From contig NZ_FOHB01000001.1 in assembly GCF_900111375.1 (NCBI RefSeq), forward strand, positions 124,001 to 188,000: DNA of 64,000 nt. The letters are read 5' to 3'. Below are positions 5,077 through 34,429 of the stretch, piece after piece. Origin of the DNA: Pedococcus cremeus. Lineage in GTDB: Bacteria > Actinomycetota > Actinomycetes > Actinomycetales > Dermatophilaceae. A model generated the notes under the pieces. That model did no database searches, was not told the DNA's origin, and saw only the letters and a program-made list of their open reading frames with translations. Each line of letters starts with the position of its first letter. Within the stretch, counting starts at the first letter, position 1. Position numbers and translations under genes: made by a program.

Positions 5077-6369
5077 TCAGGCGCGGACCTGGCCGTCGCC
5101 CTCCACGACCCACTTCGTCGTCGTCAGCTCCGGCAGCCCCATCGGGCCCCGGGCGTGCAGCTTCTGGGTGGAGATGCCGATCTCGGCGCCGAAGCCGAAC
5201 TCGCCGCCGTCGGTGAACCGGGTCGAGGCGTTGACCATCACCGCCGCCGCGTCGACCTCGTGAGTGAAGCGCCGGGCCGCCGCACGGTCCTCGGTCACGA
5301 TGGCCTCGGTGTGGCCCGACCCGTAGGTGCGGATGTGCTCGAGCGCCTCGTCGAGGTCGTCGACCACGCGCACGGCCATCTCGAGCGCGAGGTACTCGGT
5401 GCCCCAGTCCTCGTCGGTGGCGTCCTCGTGGGCCACCCCGGCCTGCTCGGCCGCCGCGCCGGAGGCCTCGTCGGTGTGCAGCCGCACGCCGGCGCCGCCC
5501 AGCTCGGCGAGCACCTTGGGCAGGAAGTCGTCGGCCACCGCCCGGTGCACGAGCAGCGACTCGGCCGCGTTGCACACGCTCGGCCGGTGCGTCTTGGCGT
5601 TGACCGCGATCGCGAGCGCCTTGTCGAGGTCGGCCGCGACGTCGACGTAGACGTGGCAGTTGCCCACGCCGGTCTCGATGACCGGCACGGTCGACTCGGT
5701 CACGACCGTCTGGATCAGGCTGGCCCCGCCGCGCGGGATGAGCAGGTCGACCAGGCCGCGCGCGGTCATCAGGGCGCGCACCGCGTCGTGCCCGCCGCCG
5801 TCGAGCAGGCTGATGGCGTCCTCGGGGAGTCCCTGCGCCACCAGCGCCTTGCGCAGCACGGCGACCAGGGCGCGGTTGGTCGACGCAGCGGCCGAGCCAC
5901 CGCGCAGCACCACGGCGTTGCCGCTCTTGAGGGCCAGGCCGGCCGCGTCGACCGTGACGTTCGGACGCGCCTCGTAGATCATCCCCACGACACCCATGGG
6001 CACCCGCACCTGGCGGATCTCCAGCCCGTTGGGCAGCGTCGAGCCGCGCACGACCTCCCCCACCGGGTCGGGCAGCGCGGCGATGTCGCGCAGCGCCTGC
6101 GCGACTCCGGCGACCCGTCCCGCGTCGAGGGTGAGCCGGTCGAGCAGGCCCTGGGCCATGCCGTTGTCGCGGCCGCGCTGGAGGTCCTCGGCGTTCGCCT
6201 TGATGACGTCGTCGGTGGCGGCGTCGAGGGCGTCGGCCATGGCCCGCAGCGCGGCGTCCTTGTCGGCGCGCGAGAGCAGGGCGAGACGGCGCGAGGCCGT
6301 GCCCGCGGCCGTGGCCAGCTCACGCACCTGCTCCACGGCGGCCGGGTCGATCATCGAGGTCGTCGACAT
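5077..6369 (-). CDS. proA: Glutamate-5-semialdehyde dehydrogenase (gamma-glutamyl phosphate reductase)
   Basis: ProA reduces gamma-glutamyl phosphate with NADPH to glutamate-5-semialdehyde, the second step of proline synthesis. The 430-residue protein has the family length. The catalytic Cys is C266 in [11 protein letters not shown], and [17 protein letters not shown] (about 125-141) and [12 protein letters not shown] near the C-terminus are characteristic. It is separated from proB by pdxY, a TetR gene and a SnoaL gene. The ATG at 6369 lies six bases after a TACCCT box on the minus strand, so the mRNA may be leaderless. Confidence 0.96.
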
Positions 6370-6375
6370 GCCCCA

Positions 6376-6381
6376 AGGGTA
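6376..6381 (-). promoter_or_regulatory. Putative -10 box of proA
   Basis: On the minus strand TACCCT ends six bases before the proA ATG. It overlaps a copy of the GGCATAC motif (6379-6385). The spacing fits a leaderless transcript. Confidence 0.4.
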
Positions 6382-6435
6382 TGCCGCGGGCTCACCGCCC
6401 AGCCGCGCGTCCCGTCCCCCGGACCGACCCCGGAT

Positions 6436-6509
6436 CGACTTCGTACCCGCCGTGCCGCGCGATCACCCCTTCCGGGGCCCGCATCACCGGCACGGCGGGT
6501 ACGAAGTCG
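6436..6509. repeat. 22-bp perfect inverted repeat between divergent proA and pdxY
   Basis: Arms 6436-6457 and 6488-6509 are perfectly complementary over 22 bases and enclose 30 bases, which themselves contain a small CCCC-TTCC-GGGG hairpin. It lies in the 213-base divergent promoter region. Perfect pairing of this length with no gene inside points to an operator pair, a cruciform or a miniature repeat element. Confidence 0.85.
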
Positions 6510-6570
6510 CCGGCACGAGCGCGAGGCGAGTGACCGCACGGCCGGCGCGCGGGCGGCATACCGGCTTTGC

Positions 6571-6582: not shown

Positions 6583-7434
6583 GTGAGCATCCTGTCGATC
6601 CAGTCCTCGGTCGCCTACGGCCACGTCGGCAACAGCGCGGCGGTCTTCCCGCTGCAGCGCCTCGGGGTGGAGGTGTGGCCCGTCTACACGGTGCACTTCT
6701 CCAACCACACCGGCTACGGCCAGTGGCGTGGGCCGCTGCTCCCGGCGAGTGACGTGCGCGAGGTGATCACGGGGATCGAGGAGCGCGGCGCGTTCCCCGG
6801 CGTCGACGCGGTGCTGTCCGGCTACCAGGGCGGTGAGGACATCGGCGACGTCATCCTCGACGCCGTGGCCCGCGTGAAGAAGGCGAACCCCGACGCCATC
6901 TACGCGTGCGACCCGGTGATGGGCAACGCCAAGAGCGGCTGCTTCGTGCACCCCGCGATCCCGGTGCTGCTGCGCGAGCGCGTGGTGCCGGCCGCCGACC
7001 TCATCACGCCCAACCAGTTCGAGCTCGGCTTCCTCACCGAGACCGAGCCCGAGACCCTCGAGGACACCCTCGACTCCGTCGACAAGGCCCGCGCCATGGG
7101 CCCGCAGACGGTGCTGGTGACCAGCGTGCTGCGCCCCGACCGCCCCGAGGACACCATCGAGATGCTGGCCGTGAACGGCGACGGCGCCTGGATCGTGCAG
7201 ACCCCTCAGCTGCCGATGAAGGCCAACGGCTCCGGCGACGTCACGGCCGCGCTCTTCACCGCGCACCTGCTCTCGACCGGCAGCCCGGCCGAGGCGCTCG
7301 GGCGCACCGCGAGCAGCGTCTTCGACCTGCTGGGGAACACGCTGGAGTCCGGTGAGCGCGAGCTGCAGCTGGTGCAGTCGCAGGAGAGCATCGCCCACCC
7401 GAAGATGCAGTTCGAGGTGACGCAGGTCCGCTGA
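6583..7434 (+). CDS. pdxY: Pyridoxal kinase PdxY
   Basis: PdxY phosphorylates pyridoxal to pyridoxal 5'-phosphate in vitamin B6 salvage. The 283-residue length matches the family (about 287). The ribokinase-fold features are visible: SVAYGHVGNSAA at 9-20 (substrate lobe), HFSNHTGYG around 38-46, YACDPVMGN at 107-115 and the anion-hole/catalytic motif GSGD at 216-219 with Asp as base. The start is the GTG at 6583, because the conserved SIQSSV segment begins five residues later; the huge open frame upstream (to 4612) is an artefact of high GC. Confidence 0.94.
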   Translation: MSILSIQSSVAYGHVGNSAAVFPLQRLGVEVWPVYTVHFSNHTGYGQWRGPLLPASDVREVITGIEERGAFPGVDAVLSGYQGGEDIGDVILDAVARVKKANPDAIYACDPVMGNAKSGCFVHPAIPVLLRERVVPAADLITPNQFELGFLTETEPETLEDTLDSVDKARAMGPQTVLVTSVLRPDRPEDTIEMLAVNGDGAWIVQTPQLPMKANGSGDVTAALFTAHLLSTGSPAEALGRTASSVFDLLGNTLESGERELQLVQSQESIAHPKMQFEVTQVR

Positions 7435-18680: not shown

Positions 18681-18720
18681 GTATGCCGCGTGGGCCCCGC
18701 GCAGCGCCCACGCGGCATAC
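18681..18720. terminator. Bidirectional hairpin made of paired GTATGCC/GGCATAC motifs
   Basis: Arms 18681-18695 and 18706-18720 are perfect 15-bp complements with a 10-base loop, between two converging genes (ends 18599 and 18770). Each outer end is exactly GTATGCC or GGCATAC. Confidence 0.8.
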
Positions 18721-34396: not shown

Positions 34397-34429
34397 GGGT
34401 ATGCCGGGTGGTGACCACCCGGCATACCC
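34397..34429. terminator. infB terminator: 33-base palindrome of paired GTATGCC/GGCATAC
   Basis: Positions 34397-34412 and 34414-34429 are perfect complements around a single G. Each arm contains the window-wide motif (34399-34405 and 34421-34427). It lies between the infB stop (34478) and rbfA start, so it probably acts as a gene-end hairpin. Confidence 0.8.

Follow-up and report, generated by a model that had tools for sequence, protein, structure and literature searches.

A previously unlisted 73-base hairpin repeat family with at least 12 copies in Pedococcus cremeus recurs in a few related actinobacteria

Small elements with inverted ends include Rickettsia palindromic elements (RPE) and MITEs, some copies of which are found in reading frames. 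Short palindromic repeats have been studied mostly in Proteobacteria, where their spread is explained by RAYT. REPINs are REP doublets that form hairpins, with 71 bp between the 16-mers in SBW25 GI (Bertels and Rainey, 2011, PMC3116915). Palindromic repeats with and without a CGTC tag, the tag being unpaired, are described from five phyla, Actinobacteria not among them (Di Nocera et al., 2013, PMC3733652). Petrillo et al. (2006, PMC1590033) describe SLS families as stable intergenic stem-loops concentrated 3' of genes, some of which are repeat families, and name three new ones from Yersiniae, Bordetellae and Enterococci.

The window analyzed here is a 64,000-nucleotide stretch of the P. cremeus genome (NZ_FOHB01000001.1, positions 124,001 to 188,000). 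The first-pass annotation had described a perfect 22-bp inverted repeat between two divergent genes, with no gene inside and with a small hairpin of its own in the 30-base loop, and all of this was reproduced (Table 1): all 22 nt of the arms pair (100% complementarity) across a spacer of 30 nt, the loop hairpin has a 4-bp stem, and the flanking genes lie outside the repeat. From that annotation we infer the exact gene names proA and pdxY, Pfam giving Aldedh and Phos_pyr_kin. About 7e-5 such perfect inverted repeats are expected per window by chance, a figure extrapolated from versions of the window generated with an order-2 Markov model, in which repeats with loops up to 60 nt become about 2.8-fold rarer per extra bp. 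The folding energy of the element region is -123.4 kcal/mol (z = -5.3). A second, looser inverted repeat (6378-6400 / 6540-6562, 78%), built on two GTATGCCG octamers, encloses the element; in the same-genus genome G001 the arms of this outer repeat are a perfect 13-mer.

Table 1. The hairpin element and its surroundings, in positions of the window.
Feature	Position	Strand	Remarks
Family copy in the window, a hairpin of 74 nt	6436..6509		R1 77.9 bits, E 5.6e-16 (whole genome; rough)
Left arm CGACTTCGTACCCGCCGTGCCG	6436..6457	+	tip CGACTTCGTA = 6436-6445
Right arm CGGCACGGCGGGTACGAAGTCG	6488..6509	-	tip TACGAAGTCG = 6500-6509
Variable centre, not alignable across copies	6458..6487		
Apical hairpin CCCC-TTCC-GGGG within the loop	6466..6477		
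proA (putative glutamate-5-semialdehyde dehydrogenase)	5077..6369	-	start 66 nt left of the element; Pfam Aldedh
pdxY-like pyridoxal kinase (putative)	6583..7434	+	start 73 nt right of the element; Pfam Phos_pyr_kin
GTATGCCG octamer flanking the element	6379..6386	+	octamer at the same site in G001 too
Second GTATGCCG octamer, inverted	6554..6561	-	octamer at the same site in G001 too

When the source genome (G000, 4.33 Mb) was searched with the arm, related arms were found elsewhere, and those places proved to be whole hairpins with the same tips. A covariance model (R1) made from an alignment of seven copies retrieved at least twelve copies from G000 (12 at E < 1e-4), the remaining list being at chance level. 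With a second model (R2), made from 24 copies, the family was detected in 11 of the 188 genomes of the taxonomic family, spread over five genera (G000; G066 and G101; G088 and G163; G095 and G208; G105, G212, G213 and G217). E-values of both models are rough, and since similarity searches had supplied the copies used for model building, the scores of those copies are not independent evidence. The recurrence of the arm in the genome, which the first-pass annotation had proposed to check, is thus established, and of the options offered there a dispersed miniature repeat is supported by the 12 copies in this genome and the 11 carriers in the family. The repeat is neither confined to a single occurrence nor unconserved, its copies nonetheless being patchy among close relatives. 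Taken together, the hairpin repeat is a previously unlisted 73-base family with at least 12 copies here that recurs in a few related actinobacteria.

Rfam yielded no match over the gathering score; plant miRNA precursors were hit by chance alone, at scores well under the threshold. Phage records contained no match to the family. Exact matches to the tips in 84,980 named genomes and in viral contigs (from Pedobacter insulae, Flavobacterium, Planctomycetes and the viral contigs) were rejected as an extension of the family, being only palindromes with unrelated centres. Matches in plasmid records were likewise set aside; they were weak and partial, came from Rhizobiales-type plasmids only and are probably due to chance. 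Pedobacter insulae has a dispersed palindrome (CGACTTCGTAAGTCG / CGACTTACGAAGTCG), usually with three copies per 70-71 nt, which is unrelated but for the tip.

Almost all elements are 73-74 nt long, and the R2 matches nearly all span 73-76 nt, with two of 64-65 nt in G088. Common to the copies are the tips CGACTTCGTA and TACGAAGTCG and an inner CCGCTCA/TGAGCGG box, and the centre is variable and cannot be aligned. Two arm types, GTACCCGC and GTATGCCGC, are found together or mixed within one element. Terminal inverted repeats are present: the ends, CGAC/GTCG, are paired, and no unpaired GTAG or CGTC tag was found at one end. In the 26-bp outer stem, examined in 24 copies, 82% of the cells were paired, compared with 74% after shuffling and 31-39% when the partner was slid. 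Both sides had changed in 16 of the 26 stem pairs, and two-sided changes were counted in 62 cells against 34 +/- 4 in shuffles (0 of 500 shuffles). The shuffle figures are not probabilities, since related copies were compared and the same copies had served to derive the structure. Pairing of the stem is maintained while the arms diverge.

The genomic position was determined for 29 copies from G000, G095 and G066 with a simple script as ORF caller. Thirteen copies are located between convergent genes, three between divergent genes and the rest between tandem genes, with two of the tandem ones inside reading frames. About 21 of the 29 lie at most 45 nt after a stop codon, compared with 23% of intergenic bases that qualify (P ~3e-8), and the 13 convergent copies compare with 15% of intergenic bases in convergent spacers (P ~7e-5); the background for both figures is a 264-kb sample of G000 only, the copies coming from three genomes. 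Two of the three divergent exceptions occupy the proA-pdxY locus, one in the window and one in G095, and the window copy, between two promoters, is at an atypical landing site. In G000, the copy at C3:10813 (L091:4014-4086) contributes ~25 residues to the C-terminal tail of a NuoI-like protein; the tail is shorter or different in relatives, that of G000 being longer by about the length of the element. A copy in G095 (C4:156061, L082:4062-4134) is read through in the linker between the two ATPase domains of an ABC protein, again with ~25 residues added. A T-tract following the GC stem, as in intrinsic terminators, was not found in the flanks of the copies, nor was any terminator-like match.

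Sites occupied in G000 were then compared with the orthologous sites of G001, G033 and G095. No element was present at the sites of C6:360429 and C3:10813 (nuoI) in any of these three genomes, at that of C9:267102 in G095 or at that of C7:89485 in G001, and visual comparison of these empty sites revealed no clear target-site duplication. The site of C6:589387 holds a decayed 73-nt copy in G001 (E 5e-4 among the searched loci) and that of C13:78740 a half copy in the same genome. Between proA and pdxY, a copy of the family is present in G095 and none in same-genus G001; the spacer of G120 contains an 18-bp hairpin unrelated to the family, and that of G033 a different sequence. At C13:91485, downstream of an ABC-transporter gene that is pstB-like by context (stretches L096 in G000, L173 in G095, L174 in G001 and L179 in G033), a family copy is found in G095 and long hairpins of other sequence in G001 and G033. 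Judged from these comparisons, hairpins turn over at this one gene 3' end across related species, and turnover of the family is quick. G000 and G095 share copies at two loci, proA-pdxY and the ABC-transporter/phosphate-transporter pair, and some copies are therefore not recent insertions; the family may be older than the divergence of the two genera, or the same two loci may have been reached twice. Other lineage-specific hairpins or families were seen as well, for example CAGGCCATGCACTGCCCC (G120, L108), TTTGGGTGCCCAG (G033, L109 and L184) and CGACACGCTGGGAAACGGCCC (G001, L142-L150), and a hairpin CTACGACACTGATCGC / CTACGACACTGCTCGC with a compensatory change is common to two genera (G000 C9:191547-191583, G120 C4:212357-212393).

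No octamer is more over-represented in the window than GTATGCCG, which flanks the element: it has 39 copies against 0.9 expected under an order-2 model; apart from the two in Table 1, examples are found at 18681-18720 and 34399-34427, and the enrichment is about 30-fold. It also ranked first in four genomes that were sampled over 200 kb each (107-112 copies per sample against 2.5-3.7 expected), and the whole of G000 contains 2417 copies against 102 of the reversed pattern. As its sub-words occur almost only inside the motif, a maximal-order Markov null is unusable, and the order-2 null and the reversed-pattern control were employed instead. About half of the genera of the taxonomic family have several hundred to 4700 copies and the other genera are at or near background; no enrichment was found in 19 other families of the order, all sampled genomes being at or near background. 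The motif is strand-symmetric, with a G before TATGCC in 97% of cases and a G after it in 99%, and often occurs as inverted pairs forming hairpins. Genic copies are mainly in two frames, for which we infer the readings Tyr-Ala (TAT GCC) or Ala-Tyr (GCA TAC) and the use of rare codons. By analogy, the pattern resembles a DNA uptake sequence. The gene comEC (PF03772) was rejected as a tracker of the motif because it is nearly universal (92 of 98 genomes), and in the open-access literature neither the motif nor an uptake sequence for Actinobacteria was found. This genus-spanning octamer is perhaps more important than the hairpin family.

On balance, we consider it probable that the family is a REPIN- or MITE-like non-autonomous hairpin repeat that is tolerated or used at transcript 3' ends. 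A unit recognized at both ends would be expected to vary little in length and to combine conserved, paired ends with an unconstrained centre, as these elements do. Each element would consist of two inverted ends with an exchangeable centre between them and would have spread non-autonomously, mobilized in trans by a putative enzyme, and copies would persist mainly at transcript 3' ends, where a long hairpin may be harmless or useful and might serve as a two-way terminator or 3'-end protector. Mobility is favoured by the patchy distribution, the empty orthologous sites and the copies inside coding sequence; against it, transposition was not directly seen, and unalignable centres beside conserved tips are not what recent copying alone would give. 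A search for the RAYT/Y1 transposase (PF01797) detected it in 6 of 14 control genomes but in none of G000, G095, G066 and their three sisters. No further transposase candidate was linked to the family, and the single-arm matches checked for a parent insertion sequence with the same ends (one arm type searched) show no element end. It is less likely, though worth serious consideration, that the hairpins are primarily functional, as U-less bidirectional terminators or stabilizers of mRNA 3' ends whose pairing is under selection and which were multiplied by ordinary recombination or gene conversion, with no transposition system. The bias to 3' ends and convergent pairs, the compensatory changes in the stem and the different long hairpins of G001 and G033 downstream of the pstB-like gene speak for such a function, and the position after stop codons would be compatible with a U-less intrinsic terminator. 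However, T-tracts and terminator-like matches are absent, three copies, that of the window included, have divergent neighbours, nuoI and the ABC-ATPase linker contain copies, and termination needs neither near-constant length nor conserved tips. Both readings are compatible with each other, as a repeat may both spread and survive at harmless or useful sites.

Two further readings were considered. The symmetric distance of the window copy from the two start codons and the presence of a G095 copy between proA and pdxY would suit a paired operator or cruciform regulating these two genes specifically, yet 26 of the 29 examined copies lie elsewhere than between divergent promoters, same-genus G001 lacks a copy at this locus and G120 and G033 have other sequences there; this reading is very improbable. 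The paired binding sites shared by both promoters that the first-pass annotation had suggested are disfavoured by the same 26 copies, and the cruciform that it named might form physically at any copy without accounting for the family. No indication of an operator role of the window copy was found; it is probably little more than a separator of the two promoters, and insulation is possible. A link to DNA uptake, with the arms as a by-product or variant of the abundant GTATGCCG motif, is very unlikely. GTATGCCG/CGGCATAC is present in the arms of three G000 copies, two inverted octamers flank the window copy and inverted GTATGCCG pairs make up many of the other hairpins of these genomes, but most copies, including the window copy and the aligned G095 and G066 copies, lack the octamer, and the family occurs in 11 of 188 genomes whereas enrichment of the octamer extends to about half of the genera. 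A more novel reading is speculative and rather doubtful: a pair of CGACTTCGTA ends in fixed geometry (63 bp, six helical turns, centre to centre) would be recognized by a putative non-Y1 enzyme, each lineage would have its own long-hairpin family, and families would swap at the same gene 3' ends, constituting a new class of transposase-less-looking hairpin element.

The repeat represents a well-delimited family in high-GC bacteria without a Y1 enzyme in the genomes tested, with sites that are empty, decayed or replaced in close relatives, and both the mover and the effect on transcript ends are directly testable in it. Inverted ends and copies in the nuoI tail and the ABC linker are shared with RPE and MITEs; the family differs from them in that no target duplication was clear, and the matches checked for the one arm type searched included no parent insertion sequence sharing its ends. 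With SLS repeats the family shares intergenic stem-loops on the 3' side of genes, and it differs from them in that length and tips are fixed across actinobacterial genera (Petrillo et al., 2006). The 73-nt unit with paired CGAC/GTCG ends distinguishes it from the palindromic repeats of Di Nocera et al. (2013), which are likewise short families without a dedicated transposase and often inverted dimers of unlike stems, to which the mixed GTACCCGC and GTATGCCGC arms are comparable. Because a Y1/RAYT transposase and a GTAG or CGTC tag are both missing, the family is not filed as a proven REPIN; further differences are the fully paired ends, an arm that is itself not consistently palindromic and a copy number that is low for REP, about 12 compared with hundreds. 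As a dispersed extragenic palindrome in many copies (12, mostly intergenic), it nevertheless corresponds to REP sequences, and it shares with REPINs two conserved inverted ends that form one long hairpin around a less conserved spacer, an intergenic and lineage-specific occurrence, a similar spacing and, in the half element of G001, a singlet-like decay product (Bertels and Rainey, 2011).
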